A stretch of DNA of 64,000 nt from Thiomicrorhabdus xiamenensis. Lineage in GTDB: Bacteria > Pseudomonadota > Gammaproteobacteria > Thiomicrospirales > Thiomicrospiraceae. The first letter of the stretch is position 1, and each line of letters starts with the position of its first letter. The translations under genes and the position numbers were made by a program. A model generated the notes under the pieces. That model did no database searches. It worked only from the letters and a program-made list of their open reading frames with translations, and had not been told where the DNA came from. Of the stretch, positions 15,746 to 55,982 are shown piece after piece. Where the stretch lies: NCBI RefSeq assembly GCF_013282625.1, contig NZ_CP054020.1:744001-808000 (forward strand), written 5' to 3'.

Positions 15746-17146
15746 ATGAAATTCATTTCAGAAGATGCAGCAAGCGATATTCGCGAAGCCGGCATGCCGG
15801 TAATCAAGGTCATAGGTCTTGGTGGCGGTGGCGGTAATGCCGTTAACTTTATGATGGAAAATACCATCGAAGGTGTCGACTTTATTGTCGCCAATACCGA
15901 TGCGCAAGCTTTGGCGCACTCCCGTGTTGAGAACCGTATTCAGCTGGGAGAGAAAGGTTTGGGTGCCGGTGCAGATCCGGAGAAAGGTCGTATGGCTACC
16001 AGAGATTCGATGGAGGCCATTAAAGGCGAAATCGAAGGTGCGGATATGTTGTTCCTGGCCGCCGGTATGGGTGGCGGAACCGGTACCGGTTCTGCTCCGG
16101 TAGTGGCGCAGCTTGCACGTGAAATGGGGATTCTGGTTGTCGGTGTTGTCAGCAAGCCTTTCTCTTACGAGCGTCGCGGTGCGGCAGCTCAGGCGGGTAT
16201 CGATGAACTGACCCAGCATGTCGATTCTCTGATTACAATTCCGAACGATAAGTTGCAGGAAATCGTTGGTGATGATTTTACGCTAAGCAACGCTTTCAAC
16301 TACGCTAACGAAATTCTGTTGAGCGCGGTCCAGGGGATCACTGAGTTGGTTACGCGTCCGGGTCTGATTAACGTTGACTTTGAAGATTTGCGTACCGTTA
16401 TGTCCGAGCGCGGCATGGCGTTGATGGGTGTCGGTTATGCGACCGGTGACGATCGTGCCATCAAAGCAACGAAAAAAGCGATTGCCCACCCTCTGCTTGA
16501 CGATATCGAAGTGTCTGGTGCAAAAGGGATTCTGATCAATGTGACCAGCGGGCCAAATCTTACAATTAGTGAATTCAATGCGGTTGGTGACGTAATCGAT
16601 CAGGTTGCGGCTCCGGATGCTAAAGTCATTATCGGTAACTCTCTGGATGAGAGCATGAATGATGAAATCCGTGTTACGGTTGTTGCAACAGGTCTTTCAC
16701 GTCGTGAAGATACCGCTCCTCAGCCGCAGCAGATGCGTAATATGGGACTTAACAGCGCGGTGAATCAGATGCAGCAGTCTGCACAGCATTCAACTCAAGC
16801 GACTCAGGAACAAGCGGCGCCTGCTCAGCCGTCTCACCAGCAGCCGAATTACACCATGCATCAGAGTTCATCTGAAATGAACTACTCCGTACAACCACAA
16901 CAGGCTCCGCAGGCTGTTCAACAACCGGTTCAGGAAGCTGCGCCAGTTGCTCAGCCGGTTCAGATGTCTGCCGACAGCTATAATACTCAGGCCAGTACGG
17001 CTCAACCTCAGAGTGGCGCCATGACTATGCAGGACGTTGAAACTCAGGCGGCTGCACAAACAACAATGGCCAGTCTGGTAAATGATAAATACGGTAAACG
17101 TGATCTGTTGGACATTCCGGCTTTCCTACGCCGCCAAAAAGATTAA
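15746..17146 (+). CDS. ftsZ: cell division protein FtsZ, in an unusual position between rsmH and ftsL
   Basis: The 466-residue tubulin-like GTPase that forms the Z-ring. GTP-binding motifs are intact: KVIGLGGGGGNAV near the N-terminus, the tubulin signature GGGTGTG at 109-115, PNDKL and the NVDFEDLRTVMSERG T7 region. The globular part ends near residue 320. It is followed by a linker of about 125 residues, very rich in Q, A, P and S, much longer than the roughly 50 residues in E. coli. The C-terminal peptide DIPAFLRRQ, which binds FtsA and ZipA, is intact. An AGAGGA ribosome-binding site precedes the ATG. Elsewhere ftsZ follows ftsA; here it lies 56 bp after rsmH and is followed by a hairpin. 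Codon usage looks like that of the neighbours. Confidence 0.97.
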   Translation: MKFISEDAASDIREAGMPVIKVIGLGGGGGNAVNFMMENTIEGVDFIVANTDAQALAHSRVENRIQLGEKGLGAGADPEKGRMATRDSMEAIKGEIEGADMLFLAAGMGGGTGTGSAPVVAQLAREMGILVVGVVSKPFSYERRGAAAQAGIDELTQHVDSLITIPNDKLQEIVGDDFTLSNAFNYANEILLSAVQGITELVTRPGLINVDFEDLRTVMSERGMALMGVGYATGDDRAIKATKKAIAHPLLDDIEVSGAKGILINVTSGPNLTISEFNAVGDVIDQVAAPDAKVIIGNSLDESMNDEIRVTVVATGLSRREDTAPQPQQMRNMGLNSAVNQMQQSAQHSTQATQEQAAPAQPSHQQPNYTMHQSSSEMNYSVQPQQAPQAVQQPVQEAAPVAQPVQMSADSYNTQASTAQPQSGAMTMQDVETQAAAQTTMASLVNDKYGKRDLLDIPAFLRRQKD

Positions 17147-17165: not shown

Positions 17166-17197
17166 CCCGGTCAAGTTCCTCTGTCTGCTTGGCCGGG
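17166..17197 (+). other. hairpin between ftsZ and ftsL
   Basis: CCCGGTCAAG at 17166-17175 pairs over ten positions (one G-T) with CTTGGCCGGG at 17188-17197, with a 12-base loop and a short TCTTT after it. It could be a weak terminator, an attenuator or an mRNA processing or stability element that sets the ftsZ/ftsL ratio. It may also be the remains of a terminator that once closed ftsZ. Confidence 0.6.
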
Positions 17198-17212
17198 TCT
17201 TTAGGAGGATTG

Positions 17213-17542
17213 ATGTCTCAATCGTCGAAGCCCGCAAACTTGAGTTATTCAAAGTCTGGTGGGCTTTTTTTATTGATTTTTTTAGTCCTGTTTTTGCTTG
17301 CTTTGCTGTTCGGCAATATCTATTTGTCGCATCAGATCAGAGGCATTCAAAAAGAGTATTACAAAAATGTCGACCAACTGGTGGCGGCACGGCACGAGTG
17401 GGGGGAGTTAATGCTGGAAAAAATGCACCTGACTTCACCGGCCAATGTCGAGCGCATCGCCAAAGAAGAGCTCAAGATGGTCAGTAGCCAGAAGCAAAAG
17501 CAGACGGTCTATATTGTCGATAAGGAAATGGATAGTGAATAG
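17213..17542 (+). CDS. ftsL: cell division protein FtsL
   Basis: A 109-residue bitopic membrane protein of the divisome FtsQLB complex. It has a short basic/polar cytoplasmic N-terminus, one strong transmembrane helix (about residues 14-36, rich in L, F and I) and a periplasmic coiled coil that ends with the family's L-T-S-P-A-N-V-E-R-I-A pattern. The ATG at 17213 is chosen over an earlier in-frame start because AGGAGG sits six bases ahead of it. The stop overlaps the ftsI start by eight bases. The family is poorly conserved in sequence, so position before ftsI is important support. Confidence 0.88.
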   Translation: MSQSSKPANLSYSKSGGLFLLIFLVLFLLALLFGNIYLSHQIRGIQKEYYKNVDQLVAARHEWGELMLEKMHLTSPANVERIAKEELKMVSSQKQKQTVYIVDKEMDSE

Positions 17543-19541
17543 ATTTCTAAACCGGGAAATTGTGATCTTTTTTCTTATCGTGATGATGATGTCGGCTCTG
17601 GTTGCCAAAGCTTTCATTACCCAAATCGTTAAAGCGGACGAATATCAGGAGAAAGCCGACGACCGGCATATCCGCAGTTATAACGTCCCTGGTGTCCGCG
17701 GTCAGATTTACGACCGAAATGGCAACTTGCTGGCAATGAGTACGCCGATGGTTGCGGTGGAGTTGGATCCGAAACAGATCGTTAAGAATGAAGCCAATTA
17801 TCACGAGTTTTTACAGCTTATCGAGCTGAAAAACAACCAGCTTCTGCAGCGGGCGCGCGAGAACCGTGATCGTAACCTCAGTTTTATCCGCTATATCAAA
17901 ACCCCTGAGCTTAAAGAGAAGATCGAACAGCTTGCTTTACCCGGTGTCCATATCAAAAAAACCGAGCATAGTTATGTCTCCGAGTATCAAGGTCAGCAGC
18001 GACAGGTTTCGGTAAAAAAAGAGTACCACTCACTGTGGATCAACGAGAAAGAACTGGATCGCATTATCTATACCTTTGACCGTCTGGCAAAGGTTTTAGG
18101 CATTTCTGCCAGCGAGTTGCGCAAGCGCGCCTATGCCAATCAGAAACGCCGTCATATGTATGTCAAACGTAGTCTGACGCCGGACTTTAGAGACAAGGTC
18201 GAAGCGCTTCGTCTGCCGCATGTCTATGTCAGTACCGAATACAAACGCTATTACCCGAACGGCGAAAGCATGGCAAATCTTCTCGGCTACACGAATGTCG
18301 ACGGTAAGGGAATCGAAGGGATTGAGCTGGCGTACAACAAACATCTAAGCGGTCGCAGCGGCAAAAAAATTGTCGTTAAGGACGTTAAAGGTAATGTTAT
18401 CAATCTGCTGAAAACCAAAAAGCAGGAGCAGGACGGTAATCCTCTGGTGTTGAGTATTGACCAGAATATCCAGTATTTGACCTATAAAGCGTTGAAACAG
18501 GTGATGTACAAGCATCAGCCGAAGAGCGCCAGTGCGGTGGTTTTGGATGCCAAAACCGGCGAAGTTCTGGCCATGGCCAGTCTGCCGAGTTTCAATGTAA
18601 ATGATACCGCACAGCGCCGAGGGCCGGGTATTCGCAATCGCGTCGTCGCCGACGTGCTGGAGCCCGGCTCGACTATGAAGCCGTTTGTTATTGCCAAAGC
18701 GCTTGACGAAGGGGTGGTTGACCTGCAATCGAAGATTGATACCGGCCGTGGTTTTATGCGCGTTCAGGGCAAGCTGATTAAAGATACCTCACGCCACGGC
18801 GTACTGACGCCGGAAGAAATTATTCAGAAATCCAGTAACGTCGGAACCGCCAAGATCGCTTTCCGCATGCCGGCGGAAGTTCAGTACGACCTGTTCAAGC
18901 AGCTTGGATTCAAAGAGGGAACGCATACTTACCTGCCGGGCGAGACGGCGGGGCGTCTTAAAGATGTTTCGCGTTGGAGCGAGATCGATCAGGCGACAAC
19001 TTCGTACGGTTACGGTTTGAGCGTTAACCTGCTGACACTGGCGCGCGCCTATACGGTTTTCGCCAACCAAGGGCGTATGCTCGACGCGCATCTGTTCAAA
19101 ATGGGCGAAAACGAGGTGCCCGCCTCGACACCGATATTCAGTCCGCAGGCAAGCCAGAAAGTTCTCGATATGATGAACAAGGTGGTTGCACCCGGCGGTA
19201 CAGCTCCGCTGGCCATGATTCCGGGGTATCAGGTTGCCGGTAAAACAGGAACGTCGCATAAAGTATCCCGTCAGGGTGGCTATGAAGATAACACCTATCT
19301 TTCGCTTTTTGCCGGAATGGTTCCGGCTTCCGATCCGGATATGGTAATGGTTGTTGCGGTTAACGAGCCTTCGCGCGGTAAGTATTACGGTGGTCTGGTA
19401 GCGGCTCCGGTCTTCAAGGAAGTTATGCAGAATGCTTTGCGTTTGCGTAAGGTGAAACCGGACTGGCAGGAGCTGCCGAATCTGCCTTTGCCGGCTTCTG
19501 ATCCGCGCTTTGCCGGTCAGATAGCCCGAGGGGGAATGTAG
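17535..19541 (+). CDS. ftsI: peptidoglycan transpeptidase FtsI (PBP3) with a duplicated N-terminal module
   Basis: The septal class B penicillin-binding protein. The GTG at 17535 is preferred because AAGGA lies eight bases upstream; this overlaps ftsL by eight bases. The first transmembrane helix spans about residues 8-28 and the transpeptidase motifs are S379-T-M-K382, S433-S-N435 and K570-T-G. The protein has 668 residues against 588 in E. coli. The excess is explained by two similar modules before the catalytic domain: residues about 73-151 and 166-242. Each has a (L/W)-x-x-x-K-(E/Q)-(L/I) entry, a K/R-rich middle and a TP-x(10)-L-x-LP-x-V core. The second copy continues into the canonical YYPNGE...NLLGYTNVDGKGIEGIE. 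The duplicated domain faces FtsW and FtsL in the divisome. Confidence 0.95.
   Translation: MNRFLNREIVIFFLIVMMMSALVAKAFITQIVKADEYQEKADDRHIRSYNVPGVRGQIYDRNGNLLAMSTPMVAVELDPKQIVKNEANYHEFLQLIELKNNQLLQRARENRDRNLSFIRYIKTPELKEKIEQLALPGVHIKKTEHSYVSEYQGQQRQVSVKKEYHSLWINEKELDRIIYTFDRLAKVLGISASELRKRAYANQKRRHMYVKRSLTPDFRDKVEALRLPHVYVSTEYKRYYPNGESMANLLGYTNVDGKGIEGIELAYNKHLSGRSGKKIVVKDVKGNVINLLKTKKQEQDGNPLVLSIDQNIQYLTYKALKQVMYKHQPKSASAVVLDAKTGEVLAMASLPSFNVNDTAQRRGPGIRNRVVADVLEPGSTMKPFVIAKALDEGVVDLQSKIDTGRGFMRVQGKLIKDTSRHGVLTPEEIIQKSSNVGTAKIAFRMPAEVQYDLFKQLGFKEGTHTYLPGETAGRLKDVSRWSEIDQATTSYGYGLSVNLLTLARAYTVFANQGRMLDAHLFKMGENEVPASTPIFSPQASQKVLDMMNKVVAPGGTAPLAMIPGYQVAGKTGTSHKVSRQGGYEDNTYLSLFAGMVPASDPDMVMVVAVNEPSRGKYYGGLVAAPVFKEVMQNALRLRKVKPDWQELPNLPLPASDPRFAGQIARGGM
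17751..18260 (+). repeat. diverged tandem duplication inside ftsI
   Basis: The coding segments 17751-17987 and about 18024-18260 encode similar modules of about 79 residues. In the best 36-residue block I count about 10 identities, with many conservative changes: IKTPELKEKIEQLALPGV against SLTPDFRDKVEALRLPHV. The repeat is visible at protein level only; the DNA copies have diverged, so the event is old. Confidence 0.7.
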
Positions 19542-27722: not shown

Positions 27723-27738
27723 AGTGTACGGAGGAGTT

Positions 27739-28518
27739 ATGAAAGGATTAGCGGGTAAACGTGTTTTGATTACCGGTGCCTCAAGCGGGATTGGCGCCGG
27801 AATGGCCAGAGTATTGGCCGGGTACGGCTGCAAGCTGGTTTTGCATTACTGTCATAACCAATCCGGAATCGAGAATACGCTGGCGGACGTCGAAGCGTTC
27901 GGCGCCGAGGCCGACGTATTTCGTTGCGATTTCACCCGTCTCGATACGTTGGAAGCTTTTTTTGAACAGGCATGGGATCGATTCGACGGGCTGGACGCGC
28001 TGGTAAATAATGCCGGGATTGTTTCCAAGGTGACGGCGCTTAAAGACCCCAAAGGCGAGCAGTTCAATCAGACGTTGGCGGTTAATCTGCAGGCCCCTTA
28101 TCAGTTGAGTTGTTGTTTTGCGCAAAAGTGCATCGCGGCGAAACAGCCGGGTCGAATCGTTAATAACTCCAGTATCCACGGCCAGCAGACCTGTGAATGG
28201 TTTTCCGCCTATGCGGCTTCCAAGGCTGCATTGGACGCTGTGTCTAAAGTTCAGGCGGTCGAGTGGGGGCAGTACGGTATCAACGTCAATGTTTTGGCAC
28301 CGGGGGTAGTGCCGGTGGAGAGAACCGATCGAATCCTCTCTCAGGAAGAGATGAAGCAAAAATGGACGGGTGCAATGCCGGTTGGCCGCTATGGAACCAC
28401 GCAAGAAATGGGAGAGGCGACGGCGTATCTTTTATCCGATTTGACTTCCTGGATGAGCGGCTCGGTTCTGACTTTGGACGGCGGTCTGATTGCCAGAGGC
28501 AATTATCCCCAGCGCTAA
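27739..28518 (+). CDS. short-chain dehydrogenase/reductase
   Basis: A 259-residue SDR oxidoreductase with the cofactor motif TGASSGIG at 12-19, NNAG in the middle, a catalytic serine in NNSSIHG and the Y-A-A-S-K active-site motif (AYAASKAALD). The C-terminal WMSGSVLTLDGG is common to FabG-like members. The substrate cannot be told from sequence. The ATG at 27739 follows a GGAGGA; an in-frame start 15 bases earlier is less likely. Only 16 bp separate it from murG, and a terminator at 28550 closes it, so it may be an extra last gene of a murG transcript. It is the first non-dcw gene in the interval between murG and murC. Confidence 0.85.
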   Translation: MKGLAGKRVLITGASSGIGAGMARVLAGYGCKLVLHYCHNQSGIENTLADVEAFGAEADVFRCDFTRLDTLEAFFEQAWDRFDGLDALVNNAGIVSKVTALKDPKGEQFNQTLAVNLQAPYQLSCCFAQKCIAAKQPGRIVNNSSIHGQQTCEWFSAYAASKAALDAVSKVQAVEWGQYGINVNVLAPGVVPVERTDRILSQEEMKQKWTGAMPVGRYGTTQEMGEATAYLLSDLTSWMSGSVLTLDGGLIARGNYPQR

Positions 28519-50215: not shown

Positions 50216-51604
50216 ATGAAAGAACAAGTTAAACAGATTCATTTTGTCGGAATCGGCGGCGTCGGCATGGCCGGCATTGCCGAAGTTTGTCTGAATTTAG
50301 GCTATACCGTCAGCGGTTCCGATATTCGTAAGAATGCGACAGTCGAGCATCTTATCTCTTTAGGCGCCCTGATTCAGATCGGGCACAATGCCGAACATGT
50401 AAAGCATTCTGATGTGGTTGTCGTTTCGACGGCAATTGGCAAAGATAATCCCGAGGTCGAATGGGCCCGTGAAGCGCGTATTCCGGTGATCCCGCGTGCC
50501 GAAATGCTGGCGGAGTTGATGCGTGTGCGTTTCGGGATTGCGATCGCCGGAACTCACGGGAAAACCACGACCACCAGTCTGACCGCCGCGGTATTGACGC
50601 AGGGCGGCATCGATCCGACGTATGTAATTGGCGGAAAGCTTAATCAGATCGGTTCCAATGCCCGCCTCGGTGCCAGCCAGTATCTGGTTGCCGAAGCGGA
50701 CGAATCCGACGCTTCTTTCCTGCATCTGACGCCGATGCTTTCGGTGATTACCAATATCGATCAGGACCATATGGAAACCTATCAGGGTGATTACCGGAAT
50801 CTGGAAAACACCTTTATCGAGTTCATCCAGCGTCTGCCGTTCTACGGCAAGGTTATTGTCTGTCTGGACGACGATAATATCCGCGAAATCCTACCGAAAA
50901 TCAGTCGTAAATTCCTTAGTTACGGGTTCAGCGAAGACGCCGATGTCCGTGCGGTGAATGTCCGTGCGGACGGTATGACTATGCGCTTTGACGTCAAACT
51001 TCCGGAGCAGGACGCACTGCTTCCGGTGTGCTTGAATATTCCAGGTGAACATAATGTTCTGAATGCCTTGGCCGCAATATGCGTCGCGCTTGAACTGGAT
51101 GTGGATGTTTCCTCGATCCAGAAGGCATTGCAGGAGTTTGCCGGCGTGGGGCGTCGCTTTGAAGTCTATCCGCATAGAGTGATCGGTGGCCACAAGGTCA
51201 CACTGGTTGATGACTACGGACATCATCCGACGGAATTGAAGGCGACGTTGCAGACTGCGCGTAACGCTTTTGAAGATAAACGTCTGGTTTTGCTCTTCCA
51301 GCCGCACCGCTACAGCCGCACACGCGATCTGTTCGATGATTTTGTACAGGCATTGCTGATGGCCGATCTGGTTATTTTGAGCGAGGTTTATCCGGCCGGC
51401 GAAAAACCGCTGGCAAACTTCGATTCCAAAGCGCTTCTGCAGGCATTGCGTACTCGTGGCGGGCATGGAATCTATGCCGAAAGTCTTGAAGAACTTGATA
51501 CGCTCTGCTCGGAAGTGCTAACCGACGATGACCTGTTGCTGGTGATGGGTGCCGGTGATATCGGTCAATTGGCGAAAAAATGGGCGGATAACGTTCAGGA
51601 TTAG
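50216..51604 (+). CDS. murC: UDP-MurNAc:L-alanine ligase
   Basis: A 462-residue cytoplasmic ligase that adds the first amino acid to UDP-MurNAc. The N-terminal VGIGGVGMAGIAEV binds UDP, the P-loop is AGTHGKTTTTSL near residues 111-122, and LVAEADESDASFLHL, NIDQDHMETY, GVGRRFEVY, DDYGHHPTELKATL and FQPHRYSRTRDL are MurC-specific. It resumes the dcw order (murC-ddl-ftsQ-ftsA) about 22.5 kb after murG. A TATGAT at 50172-50177 could be its own -10 box, needed because it is cut off from the mra promoter. Confidence 0.96.
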   Translation: MKEQVKQIHFVGIGGVGMAGIAEVCLNLGYTVSGSDIRKNATVEHLISLGALIQIGHNAEHVKHSDVVVVSTAIGKDNPEVEWAREARIPVIPRAEMLAELMRVRFGIAIAGTHGKTTTTSLTAAVLTQGGIDPTYVIGGKLNQIGSNARLGASQYLVAEADESDASFLHLTPMLSVITNIDQDHMETYQGDYRNLENTFIEFIQRLPFYGKVIVCLDDDNIREILPKISRKFLSYGFSEDADVRAVNVRADGMTMRFDVKLPEQDALLPVCLNIPGEHNVLNALAAICVALELDVDVSSIQKALQEFAGVGRRFEVYPHRVIGGHKVTLVDDYGHHPTELKATLQTARNAFEDKRLVLLFQPHRYSRTRDLFDDFVQALLMADLVILSEVYPAGEKPLANFDSKALLQALRTRGGHGIYAESLEELDTLCSEVLTDDDLLLVMGAGDIGQLAKKWADNVQD

Positions 51605-51653
51605 AGTGTTTTCAGCGAAGCCGTCGTGATAAGAATCAAACAAGGGATTGAGA

Positions 51654-52571
51654 GTGCTATTCGAGTTAAGTGAACAAAGTAAAGTTGCCGTCTTAATGGG
51701 CGGCGTCGCGGCGGAAAGAGAAATCTCGCTGCGCAGTGGTCAGGCGGTAACCGAAGCCTTGCAGGCGCAGGGCATTGACGCGACGGGGATTGACGTTTCC
51801 AACCTGTCGCAACTGCAGCAAGTTTCCGAAGAGTATGATGTTGCTTTTATCGCTTTACATGGGCGCTGGGGTGAGGACGGAACCGTTCAGGCCATTCTCG
51901 AAGATTTGCAAATGCCGTTTACCGGAAGCCGAATGGCAGCTTCTGCGATTGCCATGGATAAATTACGCACCAAATGGATGTGGCGCGGTGCGGATCTGCC
52001 GACACCGAACTTTGTCTGGGTAAACGAGCATAGACCGTTGAATACAGAAAATTTTCCGTTGCAGTTCCCGGTGATCGTCAAGCCGGTTCATGAGGGATCG
52101 AGTATCGGAATGCAGAAAGTAGACTCAATGCCGCAATTGCAGGCGGCGGTCGATGAAGCGCAGAAATTCGATCAAGAGGTGCTGATCGAACAATGGATTA
52201 CCGGTCGCGAATTTACCTGTGCGGTTCTTGACGGCGAAGCTTTGCCGTTAATCGAGTTAAAGACCAATAATGTCTTTTACGATTACGAAGCCAAATATCA
52301 GTCCAACGATACGCAATATCTTTGTCCGGCGGACCTGGATTCCGGATTGACGGAATCGATTCAGAAAATCGTTCTTCAGGCATTTGCCGTTGTCGGCTCC
52401 GATACTTGGGGGCGAGTCGACCTGATGCTGGATGAAAATAACCAGCCGTGGCTGATCGAATTGAACTCCGTGCCGGGAATGACTGATCACAGTCTGGTGC
52501 CGATGGCGGCGAAAGCGCAGGGGATCGATTTCCAGCAGTTGGTCAAACGTATTCTGCAGCGAGCGAAATAG
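51654..52571 (+). CDS. ddl: D-alanine-D-alanine ligase
   Basis: A 305-residue ATP-grasp enzyme that makes the dipeptide used by MurF. The GTG at 51654 is preferred over the TTG at 51648, because CAAGGG is then seven bases upstream and the length matches E. coli DdlB (306). Visible: VLMGGVAAEREISLRSG, HGRWGEDGTVQ, PFTGSRMAASAIAMDK, VKPVHEGSSIGMQKV, and the Mg/ATP site GRVDLMLDENNQPWLIELNSVPGMT. It sits between murC and ftsQ as in other gammaproteobacteria. Whether the genome has a second ddl is unknown. Confidence 0.95.
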   Translation: MLFELSEQSKVAVLMGGVAAEREISLRSGQAVTEALQAQGIDATGIDVSNLSQLQQVSEEYDVAFIALHGRWGEDGTVQAILEDLQMPFTGSRMAASAIAMDKLRTKWMWRGADLPTPNFVWVNEHRPLNTENFPLQFPVIVKPVHEGSSIGMQKVDSMPQLQAAVDEAQKFDQEVLIEQWITGREFTCAVLDGEALPLIELKTNNVFYDYEAKYQSNDTQYLCPADLDSGLTESIQKIVLQAFAVVGSDTWGRVDLMLDENNQPWLIELNSVPGMTDHSLVPMAAKAQGIDFQQLVKRILQRAK

Positions 52572-52600
52572 CTTAGCGTTTGAAAAGGGTGTCCGCTTTT

Positions 52601-53365
52601 ATGATTCCAGAACAAGCCGAAGTCGAGCAGGAAAGCCCCAATAAACTGGGCGCGGAGCCGTCCAAGTTGCCCAAGGTGGCTTTCTGGCTTTTGATTACGG
52701 CACTGGCACTGGTCTTCAGTGCCTGGCTGATGCTGCCGAATAAAGGCGGAGATCACTGGTTTTCCAAAGGCATCAGTTCGTATCATGTTCAATCACAGTT
52801 AAATGAAGTCCGGCCGGAAGATATCGACCGGGTTTTAAAAAGTTATCTCGGCGTCTCTTTCTGGGACGTACCGATCGACGAGATTCAGGGGCGTCTGACA
52901 CAGCTTGACTGGGTGGTTAAAGCCGAAGTCAGCCGGGTTTGGCCGGATAAGCTGGATGTCCAGGTCTTTGAGCAGAAACCGGTTGCCCGTTGGGGCGAGA
53001 GCGGTTTGATCAATCATCAGGGGCAGGTGTTTTTTCCTTATAGTATCGAAGGCTATCGGGATCTGGTGGTCCTTGACGGCAGTCTGGATTCCAGCCAGTT
53101 GGTATTGCAGCGCTGGGTCGAAATTAACGAACTGTTTCAGAAACAGAATATTGCTCTGGTCGGTCTGGCGTACAAGCCGGGTAAAATCTGGCAGATCTAT
53201 CTGGCAAGCGGTCAGAGTGTGATACTGGAAGACGAGCAGTGGCAGAGAAAACTGCGTCTCTTTTTTCAGGCCTATAAGCAATTATCGCAAGACCTGATAA
53301 AATCCGCAGAGACCTTTGATTTACGCTATAGTAATGGTTTTGTGGTCGGTAAGAAAACGCCGTAA
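52601..53365 (+). CDS. ftsQ: cell division protein FtsQ
   Basis: A 254-residue bitopic divisome protein: a short acidic cytoplasmic tail, one membrane helix (about 28-46), a POTRA domain beginning near ISSYHVQSQLNEVRPEDIDRVLKSYLGVSFWDVPID, and the beta domain (LDWVVKAEVSRVWPDKLDVQVFEQKPVARWG). These are standard FtsQ segments. The ATG at 52601 is taken; TTG and GTG starts at 52580 and 52589 are also in frame. It ends 76 bp before ftsA. Confidence 0.92.
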   Translation: MIPEQAEVEQESPNKLGAEPSKLPKVAFWLLITALALVFSAWLMLPNKGGDHWFSKGISSYHVQSQLNEVRPEDIDRVLKSYLGVSFWDVPIDEIQGRLTQLDWVVKAEVSRVWPDKLDVQVFEQKPVARWGESGLINHQGQVFFPYSIEGYRDLVVLDGSLDSSQLVLQRWVEINELFQKQNIALVGLAYKPGKIWQIYLASGQSVILEDEQWQRKLRLFFQAYKQLSQDLIKSAETFDLRYSNGFVVGKKTP

Positions 53366-53441
53366 CCATGGCGAAATAACAAAAGAAATATAAACATTAG
53401 AAAGATAGACCTTAAGCTTAAAGCAGGGTGGAGTGGCACGG

Positions 53442-54713
53442 ATGGCGAACATGCAAAGTAGTCCAAATATTATTGTCGGTTTAGATATCGGAACCTCAAA
53501 AATCAAGGCGGTAATCGGGGAACTCTCCCCAAGCCAGATTGAAGTTCGCGGATACAGTATTGTGCCGACCAAAGGACTGCGTAACGGTGTGGTGATTAAT
53601 ATCGAGGAAACCAAACGCTCGATCAAAACCGCGATTGAAGAAGCCGAAGGCGTTGCCGGATGTGAGGTGGATTCCGCTTATATCGGGATTACCGGCGGCC
53701 ATATCAAAAGCATCAATTCGCACGGTGTCGTGACCATCAATAACGAAGTTTCGCCGGAAGATGTTCAGAGAGTAACCGATCAGGCGCATGCCGGTAAATA
53801 TTCGCCGTCCGAAGAGCGCATGCTGCATGTTCTGCCTCAGGAATTTACGCTGGATATGCAGGAAGGGATTCTCGAACCGGTCGGTATGGCCGGTAAGCGC
53901 CTTGAGGTCAAAACGCATATTATTACTGCCAGCCAGAGCGCGGTGCGCAATATCGAAAAATGCGTCCATTCCGCCGGACTGCACGACAGTACTCCCGTGC
54001 TGGCGCAGTTGGCGGCCAGTGAAGCGGTTCTCAGTGAAGACGAAAAAGAGCTGGGCGTCTGCGTCGTCGATATCGGTGGCGGAACGACCGATATTACGGT
54101 TTATCGCAATGGCTCCATGCAATATACGGCAGTTCTGCCGATTGCCGGTAACTATGTCACTAACGATGTCGCCATCGCTTTCAATACCCCGACCGACTCG
54201 GCAGAAAAAATCAAAGTCCAGTACGGCTGCGCCATGCCGAGCCTGATTAAGGAAGATTTCAAGTTCGACGTTCAGCGCGTCGGCGAACGCGAGCCTTTCG
54301 CGTTGAGTCAGCGTCTGTTGTCCGAAGTGATTCGTCCGCGTATGGAAGAAATTTACGAAAGTGTCGAAGCGCGTCTTAAGCAAGACGGCTTTTCCAAGGA
54401 GATGTTCGGTGCGGGAATCGTGATTACCGGCGGTTCGTCGATGATCTTTGGCAGTGTGCCTTTGGCGGAAGAGATTTTTGATATGCCGGTGCGCATCGGT
54501 TTGCCGAAAAGCGATTATCTGAGCGGCGGGCTGGTCAACGAAATCAACCACTCCGAACTTTCGACGGCAATCGGTCTGTTGCTGTATGCGCAACAGAATT
54601 TCGATTTGGATCATCCAGGCTACGAGTTCACGGTTGAAGATCACGAAAGTTTTCTGGAAAGAACAACCGACCGGTTCCGCCGTTTCAAAAACTGGTTATC
54701 TTCCAGTTTCTAA
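53442..54713 (+). CDS. ftsA: cell division protein FtsA
   Basis: A 423-residue actin-like ATPase that anchors FtsZ to the membrane. The phosphate-1 loop IVGLDIGTSKIKAVIGE, phosphate-2 VCVVDIGGGTTDITVY and adenosine motif VITGGSSMIFGSVPLAEEIF are present. The C-terminal amphipathic membrane-targeting helix is FRRFKNWLSSSF. The ATG at 53442, eight bases after GGTGGAG, fits better than the GTG at 53433. In nearly all gammaproteobacteria ftsZ follows directly; here the next gene is lpxC after 357 bp. Confidence 0.95.
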   Translation: MANMQSSPNIIVGLDIGTSKIKAVIGELSPSQIEVRGYSIVPTKGLRNGVVINIEETKRSIKTAIEEAEGVAGCEVDSAYIGITGGHIKSINSHGVVTINNEVSPEDVQRVTDQAHAGKYSPSEERMLHVLPQEFTLDMQEGILEPVGMAGKRLEVKTHIITASQSAVRNIEKCVHSAGLHDSTPVLAQLAASEAVLSEDEKELGVCVVDIGGGTTDITVYRNGSMQYTAVLPIAGNYVTNDVAIAFNTPTDSAEKIKVQYGCAMPSLIKEDFKFDVQRVGEREPFALSQRLLSEVIRPRMEEIYESVEARLKQDGFSKEMFGAGIVITGGSSMIFGSVPLAEEIFDMPVRIGLPKSDYLSGGLVNEINHSELSTAIGLLLYAQQNFDLDHPGYEFTVEDHESFLERTTDRFRRFKNWLSSSF

Positions 54714-55070
54714 TCCGGTTTCAATTTCTCAAATCGTCAAATTGAAAAGCGGCTGTAACCCTCCTGTCATTCTTTGACGAATTATGCGGCTTTTCCAGAT
54801 AGTTTTATTAACGATTTCTCAATCGCCTCTGCTTTATGCTTTAGCAGAGGTCAACTTATGATAATATTCCTCTTTGCTTAAATATAAGCCTGCCTGACAA
54901 CAAGCAGATTTTGATAATTACCAATATACCAAGCAGGATTAAACTTCGGATGAGCGCAGAAGCGTTCTTATGTATTCTGTCCCAGAAGTAAAGCGTTGTT
55001 GAATAAAAACGCTTGGGCGGAAGGTTTAATCAAGCGCAGTTTGACTGCGCCTAAAAATGAATAAACGAGT
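54714..55070 (+). other. 357 bp gap between ftsA and lpxC, where ftsZ is normally found
   Basis: No gene or recognisable ftsZ remnant in any frame. It holds three hairpin-forming repeats: CCTCTGCT with AGCAGAGG (54826-54850), AAGCGTT with AACGCTT (near 54992-55014), and GCGCAGT-TTG-ACTGCGC (55034-55050), the last only 20 bases before the lpxC start. A TATGAT at 54856-54861 could be an lpxC -10 box, but no good -35 box is seen. Confidence 0.6.
55034..55050 (+). promoter_or_regulatory. hairpin just upstream of the lpxC start
   Basis: A perfect seven-base stem (GCGCAGT/ACTGCGC) with a three-base loop, ending 20 bases before the TTG start and upstream of the weak GAG ribosome-binding site. It could affect translation initiation; no regulator is implied by the sequence. 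Confidence 0.4.
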
Positions 55071-55982
55071 TTGACATTGAATCAAAGAACCTTAGTAAAT
55101 TCGATTAAGGCGAAGGGCATCGGGCTACATACTGGACACGAGTCGGTCATGACTTTGCGCCCTGCGCCGGTGGATACCGGAATCGTTTTCCGCAGAATCG
55201 ATGTGGATCCGGTCGTGGAGTTCAAAGTGTCACCGCAGATTGTCGGTGAAACCACTTTGTGTACAACGATCGTCAATGAACAATTGAAAATCGCTACGAT
55301 AGAACATCTGATGTCCGCACTGGCCGGCGTCGGTATCGACAACGTCTATATTGATATCAGTTCGGACGAAGTTCCGATTATGGACGGCAGTTCGTCGCAT
55401 TTTGTTTTCCTTTTACAGGCCGCCGGCATTCAGCTACAGGACGCACCTAAACGTTTTGTACGTATTCTCAAGCCGGTTCGGGTCGAAAACGATCAGGGCG
55501 GTTGGGCGGAATTCGTTCCTTATGACGGTTACCGCCTGAACTTCTCGATCGCTTTTTCGCATCCGGCATTTGAAAATACCGCGGAAAAAATGACGCTGGA
55601 ATTTTCAGCAACAGCCTATTTCAAAGAAGTGTCGCGTGCGCGAACTTTCGGATTCATGAAAGATATGGATATGCTGCGCGCCAAGAATCTTGGCTTGGGT
55701 GCAAGCCTGAAAAATGCAATCGGTCTTGGCGATGAAGGCGTTGTCAACGCCGAAGGTCTGCGCGACAAGGATGAATTTGTCCGCCATAAGATTCTGGATG
55801 CGGTCGGTGATCTGTATATGCTTGGTCATCCGGTGATCGGCGAGTTCAACGCGCACAAATCGGGGCATGCTCTGAATAACCAGTTGATTCGTGCCTTGCT
55901 TGAACAGCCGGATGCGTTTGAACTGGTCGAGTATGAAGGCTCGAATCCTCCGGTCAGCTACTCTTCCAGTCTGGTCGTTTAA
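55071..55982 (+). CDS. lpxC: UDP-3-O-acyl-N-acetylglucosamine deacetylase
   Basis: A 303-residue zinc enzyme, the first committed step of lipid A synthesis. Zinc ligands are H79 (ATIEHLMSAL), H239 and D243 (VRHKILDAVGD), and HKSGHALNN carries the catalytic histidine. The start must be a TTG: a TAA codon lies three codons before the TTG at 55071, and the only other early start is a TTG at 55077. The family N-terminus (NQRTLVNSIKAKGIGLHTG) confirms the reading. A weak start and a nearby hairpin suggest controlled, low expression. A bidirectional terminator follows. Confidence 0.96.
   Translation: MTLNQRTLVNSIKAKGIGLHTGHESVMTLRPAPVDTGIVFRRIDVDPVVEFKVSPQIVGETTLCTTIVNEQLKIATIEHLMSALAGVGIDNVYIDISSDEVPIMDGSSSHFVFLLQAAGIQLQDAPKRFVRILKPVRVENDQGGWAEFVPYDGYRLNFSIAFSHPAFENTAEKMTLEFSATAYFKEVSRARTFGFMKDMDMLRAKNLGLGASLKNAIGLGDEGVVNAEGLRDKDEFVRHKILDAVGDLYMLGHPVIGEFNAHKSGHALNNQLIRALLEQPDAFELVEYEGSNPPVSYSSSLVV

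Follow-up and report, generated by a model that had tools for sequence, protein, structure and literature searches.

Tandem duplication of the head subdomain in FtsI of Thiomicrorhabdus, as read from sequence and profile comparison

Among the division genes carried by a 64,000-nucleotide stretch of the Thiomicrorhabdus xiamenensis genome (contig NZ_CP054020.1, positions 744,001 to 808,000; hereafter the window), ftsI encodes a protein of 668 residues, compared with 588 in E. coli (PMC10390529). An earlier note, made from the letters of the DNA, rightly remarked on this excess of about 80 residues and ascribed it to a second copy of a pedestal module. FtsI is essential, and it is through its pedestal that FtsN and FtsQLB signal activation to FtsW, as described in PMC8078798 and PMC10390529. 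What is the additional segment, how did it arise, and what might it do so close to the switch of the divisome? The segment lies at positions 17751-18260 of the window (FtsI residues 73-242). The features discussed below are these:

17189..17542, + strand: ftsL, 117 aa from a TTG start, PF04999; partner of the FtsI pedestal
17535..19541, + strand: ftsI (PBP3), 668 aa from a proposed GTG start at 17535; PF00905 and PF03717
17727..17747, + strand: neck strand 1, residues 65-71, equivalent to P. aeruginosa P72-P78; present once, 5′ of copy 1
17751..17960, + strand: head copy 1 (extra, diverged), residues 73-142, placed by profile and alignment
17961..18026, + strand: connector, residues 143-164
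18027..18236, + strand: head copy 2 (canonical), residues 165-234, placed by profile and alignment
18240..18257, + strand: neck strand 2, YKRYYP, residues 236-241, equivalent to P. aeruginosa F151-P156; present once, 3′ of copy 2
18531..19430, + strand: FtsI transpeptidase domain, residues 333-632, PF00905

The motifs used to define FtsI (PBP3) are the active-site signatures SxxK, SxN and KTG; in the window protein they fall at S379-K382, S433-N435 and K570-G572, and they are identical in all 19 aligned sequences. Pfam places PF00905 at residues 333-632 (E 1.9e-72) and the PBP dimerisation domain, PF03717, as one match at residues 52-290 (E 7.7e-25). The solved structures nearest to the protein are FtsI/PBP3 chains, and the gene holds its position in the dcw cluster, 3′ of ftsL and 5′ of murE. 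An alternative ATG at 17445 would lengthen the product to 698 residues.

By alignment and by profile comparison, this FtsI bears a true tandem duplication of the head subdomain, and the two consecutive copies described in the earlier note are borne out. Local alignment of residues 71-162 against residues 163-242, as single sequences, gives a score of 78, and the best of 10,000 shuffles reaches 54. Profiles built from 30 sequences of the genus match each other, copy 1 against copy 2, with a probability of 98.4 over 76 gapless columns. When the copy-1 profile is trimmed to residues 80-142, so as to exclude the entry strand that is common by descent to every FtsI, it still matches copy 2 (residues 166-241) with a probability of 97.3 and a score of 56.2 over 60 gapless columns, and it matches 15 single-head relatives with a probability of 98.3 and a score of 70.8 over 62 gapless columns. 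As controls, 18 decoy segments of 76 residues taken from elsewhere in the same proteins score at most 13.4, and 100 column-shuffled copy-2 profiles at most 16.1. Run against the window FtsI, the copy-1 profile recovers both copies (E 1.9e-33 and 5.8e-8); run against the class, it finds matches in 156 of 369 genomes, in frames that are apparently mostly of ordinary FtsI length. In tblastn, one outgroup stretch of DNA matches both copies in five of the six outgroup loci compared. The idea that the copies resemble each other by chance, for which their low single-sequence identity (18% over 76 columns) might be cited, is refuted by the shuffle and decoy controls and by the fact that the copy-1 profile picks out ordinary FtsI heads, and we give it practically no weight.

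By the same profile we reject an insert of another fold, which the earlier note had named as a refuting outcome for residues 73-165: residues 80-142 match the canonical FtsI head, and the fold of copy 1 would probably be that of an FtsI head. A derivation of copy 1 from the elongation enzyme PBP2 is unsupported; the matches of the copy-1 profile in its own genome are two, both in FtsI. A scan of viral contigs for further sequences found no relative. An AlphaFold2 model, built from only 3 sequences, has a mean pLDDT of 32.1 and a pTM of 0.30, values too low for the model to be used.

The extent of the duplication differs from what was first supposed. Its period is 92 residues, not about 79, and is made up of a unit of 70 residues and a connector of 22; the borders of the unit were set by mapping the P. 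aeruginosa head onto the protein by alignment and applying the repeat offset of 92. In the domain description of PMC3025346, the P. aeruginosa PBP3 head comprises residues 80-149 and is set within a beta subdomain of residues 50-79 and 150-221. By that boundary, an internal copy of pedestal sequence is present, as had been claimed, but the unit copied is the head subdomain alone. The boundary matters for the strands P72-P78 and F151-P156, which contact FtsL in the P. aeruginosa complex as presented in PMC7614612, a source that assigns them mainly to the head. Under the limits given in PMC3025346, these FtsL-contacting strands fall just outside the duplicated head, and each is single in the window protein. 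The connector, initially taken for a basic linker of 15 residues, is variable in length within the genus (20-26 residues) and is not basic in relatives; with a mean identity of 35% over residues 142-165, it is the least conserved part of the segment. Its hydrophobic residues alternate at 143/145/147 and at 158/160, a pattern that suggests a beta-hairpin.

A search across the order covered 62 genomes, 32 of Thiomicrorhabdus and 30 from six sister genera. The doubled head is present in 31 of the 32 Thiomicrorhabdus genomes, with full-length matches at 48-100% identity; the other genome, G042, gave no FtsI match. In 30 of the 31 the segment was read directly and spans 167-173 residues, counted from the entry strand up to KRYYP, and the thirty-first FtsI (L008) is 99% identical across its full length. 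In the sister genera, 29 of the 30 genomes have an FtsI match, one of them split across contigs, leaving 28 readable heads from six genera, none of which is doubled. Sixteen of these are of canonical length (79-82 residues). The remaining 12, from two sister genera (g3 and g7), are longer by some 20-35 residues at the point where the head begins, which is also the site of the doubling, and the extra stretch aligned as an insert unlike copy 1; the sequences concerned are L037, L039-L042, L044, L047-L049, L055, L057 and L058.

In a tree of 89 heads built on 76 columns, all copies 1 form one clade (100/100) and all copies 2 another (100/89). Since each copy is a single clade within the genus, the duplication took place before the genus radiated. 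The stem of copy 1 measures 1.66 and that of copy 2 0.39. In this tree copies 1 and 2 are not sister groups; copy 1 joins the single heads of g3 and g7 at 97/74, below the joint threshold. Taken at face value, that join would make copy 1 a head inserted by recombination from another FtsI lineage, not one derived from the neighbouring head. The tree has 76 columns for 89 rows, a midpoint and hence arbitrary root and a very long copy-1 stem, and the program cautions that joins of this kind can be spurious; moreover, copying in place is the simpler event. Considering these features of the tree together with the 97/74 placement, we allow recombination a small chance, and we continue with a tandem duplication of the FtsI head before the genus radiated as the probable origin of copy 1.

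The two copies have had different histories since then. To judge from their residues, copy 2 remained canonical, as the earlier note supposed: it is 36% identical to a single-head consensus sequence, compared with 20% for copy 1, and it keeps R212, P216 and R238 in 30 of 30 genus sequences, as do 15 of 15 single-head relatives. The equivalent positions of copy 1 (120, 124 and 146) have lost these canonical residues in most of the genus: the commonest residue is Q at 120 (24 of 30), K at 124 (10 of 30) and S at 146 (15 of 30), with P retained at 124 in the window FtsI itself. We therefore regard copy 1 as a head by ancestry that has diverged, and not as a canonical head in working order. The pattern once offered as common to both copies, TP-x(10)-L-x-LP-x-V, has to be amended on two counts: the sequence reads TP-x(8)-L-x-LP-x-V, and copy 1 does not have the TP throughout the genus, D standing at position 123 in 25 of 30 sequences and 124 varying as above. 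Copy 1 has invariants of its own in all 30 sequences (D78, Y89, S116, F117, L133 and G137), a core of 70-71 residues in every one of them, and a mean pairwise core identity of 51%, against 47% for copy 2. By these measures copy 1, while diverged, is today conserved no less than copy 2, and its own invariants, core identity and near-fixed length suggest that it changed early and was then held.

One could imagine the roles of the copies exchanged, copy 1 lying against FtsL where the canonical head would sit and copy 2 being displaced from there, since copy 1 retains the original entry (LLAMSTPM..DPK) and follows neck strand 1 in sequence order. We consider this improbable: R212, P216 and neck strand 2 stay with copy 2, which is also much nearer the single heads, both in identity to their consensus and in its shorter stem. 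We accordingly keep to copy 2 as the probable canonical head.

Is a doubled head found elsewhere? A double-head profile finds matches in 349 of 369 genomes of the class and 364 of 398 genomes of the phylum; among the matches listed, alignments beginning at position 1 come solely from Thiomicrorhabdus genomes, and a single genome outside the genus, G624, begins at position 11. A further search matched 183 of 185 genomes and, among the matches listed, all but the window start at 157-193. The copy-1 profile matches twice in each of five genomes: two of the genus itself (adjacent matches in one frame), two with the matches on separate contigs, and G721. In the FtsI of G624 (L092:561-2603, 680 aa) the head is roughly double its normal length and contains an internal repeat. 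When its segments A, B and C are compared, none of 5,000 shuffles is as good as B with C; A with B (192 of 5,000) and A with C (1,663 of 5,000) are not significant. In the 4 of 11 long-head loci whose heads could be read, profile comparison gives B against C a probability of only 70.7 and A against B 8.3. The gammaproteobacterial family of this genome (f166) has the long form in 25 of 61 sampled genomes and the short form in 36. Because it belongs to another family and repeats another part, the long head of f166 looks, from its sequence, like an independent and partial enlargement. The literature searched, mostly by titles, yielded no paper describing an FtsI whose head is duplicated.

The genome encodes FtsL beside ftsI, one FtsQ match, one DivIC/FtsB match and two SPOR proteins, and a known activation set is thus available to copy 1. 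The thought that the extra head substitutes for a lost partner is unsupported, FtsL, FtsQ, DivIC/FtsB and SPOR matches all being present. One of the SPOR proteins (L069:988-1740, 250 aa, just after an argS-like gene) looks FtsN-like by eye, and its FYSELKDLEV stretch is reminiscent of the essential segment of FtsN. In the model described for E. coli, FtsN lies on the FtsI head and its neck, and tighter packing of the head on FtsL is tied to activation (PMC10390529); according to the relevant section of the same paper, the FtsN-head contact is not predicted for P. aeruginosa, and it may not hold in Thiomicrorhabdus either. FtsL packs on the FtsI neck strands in the model of PMC7614612. The duplicated part had also been described as the interface to FtsW and FtsQLB. 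The copies do adjoin the part that meets FtsL; FtsW loop 4, however, is contacted by the anchor part of FtsI and not by the head, as far as PMC10390529 describes it. The genetic study in PMC8078798, in the portion that concerns FtsI, maps both activating and inactivating changes to the pedestal facing FtsW loop 4.

Several features of the surrounding division genes deserve mention in their own right. The sole ftsZ of the genome (one PF00091 match) lies at 15746-17146, between rsmH and ftsL. Nine of nine loci, drawn for comparison from six genera of the order, likewise have ftsZ 3′ of rsmH, and this arrangement is therefore older than the doubling of the head. At 50216-55982, murC, ddl, ftsQ, ftsA and an lpxC-like gene stand together without ftsZ (named by eye, except for ftsQ), and a short-chain dehydrogenase gene (27724-28518) lies directly 3′ of murG, the expected place of murC.

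We suggest, tentatively, that copy 1 is an added and specialised protein-binding head beside the FtsL/FtsN hub, the product of the tandem duplication before the genus radiation, with copy 2 as the canonical head. Copy 2, directly joined to neck strand 2 and keeping the canonical residues, would probably occupy the canonical place beside FtsL. Copy 1, which follows neck strand 1 and precedes the canonical head, would have diverged rapidly at first and later settled into a conserved surface of its own around the invariant Ser-Phe. It would most likely enlarge or re-tune the surface by which FtsQLB and FtsN switch on FtsWI; since it lacks the equivalents of R212 and R238, it need not bind the same partner as the canonical head.

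That a sequence is conserved is not in itself proof of binding, and the extra head could be a structural passenger: a tolerated duplication that became entrenched through constructive neutral evolution and is constrained only for folding. The neck strands that touch FtsL and the transpeptidase domain are intact, the connector varies freely, and 12 of 28 sister-genus sequences carry an unrelated insert of about 30 residues at the site of the doubling, which indicates that insertions are tolerated there. A longer FtsL, such as might fit a second head, is not seen: aligned with 5 outgroup FtsL, the coiled coil has no stretch added or lost, and this unchanged length, which suits a passenger, is a point against an added binding head. 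On the other side stand the core of copy 1, at least as conserved as that of the canonical copy; its six invariant residues, which lie outside the shared entry and differ from those of the canonical head; and its loss in none of the 31 genomes. The passenger explanation is possible and ranks not far behind the added binding surface.

Going further than the binding head that we favour, copy 1 may be a new kind of regulatory module in the divisome, a second and specialised head on which FtsN, FtsQLB or a partner peculiar to the genus could also dock, altering the switching of FtsWI; and the FtsI head may be an evolvable element that has grown on at least two occasions, each in its own way, among the Gammaproteobacteria. 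We put this forward with more reserve. How the head contributes to activation is disputed, and it is not the same in E. coli as in P. aeruginosa, in the account of PMC10390529; a natural lineage with one canonical and one specialised head offers a ready test of that contribution.

The doubled head is a variant of a known protein, fixed in the genus at a sensitive place, and it is best appreciated beside its relatives. P. aeruginosa FtsI/PBP3 (8bh1, 8p1u, 3pbn and related chains) likewise has a single transmembrane segment, a pedestal of anchor, neck and head, and a transpeptidase domain, and it aligns without gaps over the copy 2 head (window residues 166-268 against P. aeruginosa 81-183), but it has one head, as delimited in PMC3025346, and the window FtsI has two. 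The FtsI of the six sister genera shares the ftsL-ftsI-murE neighbourhood and the same head, yet its head is single. The long-head FtsI of f166 resembles the window protein in having a head roughly doubled in size, but there only the helical half is repeated.
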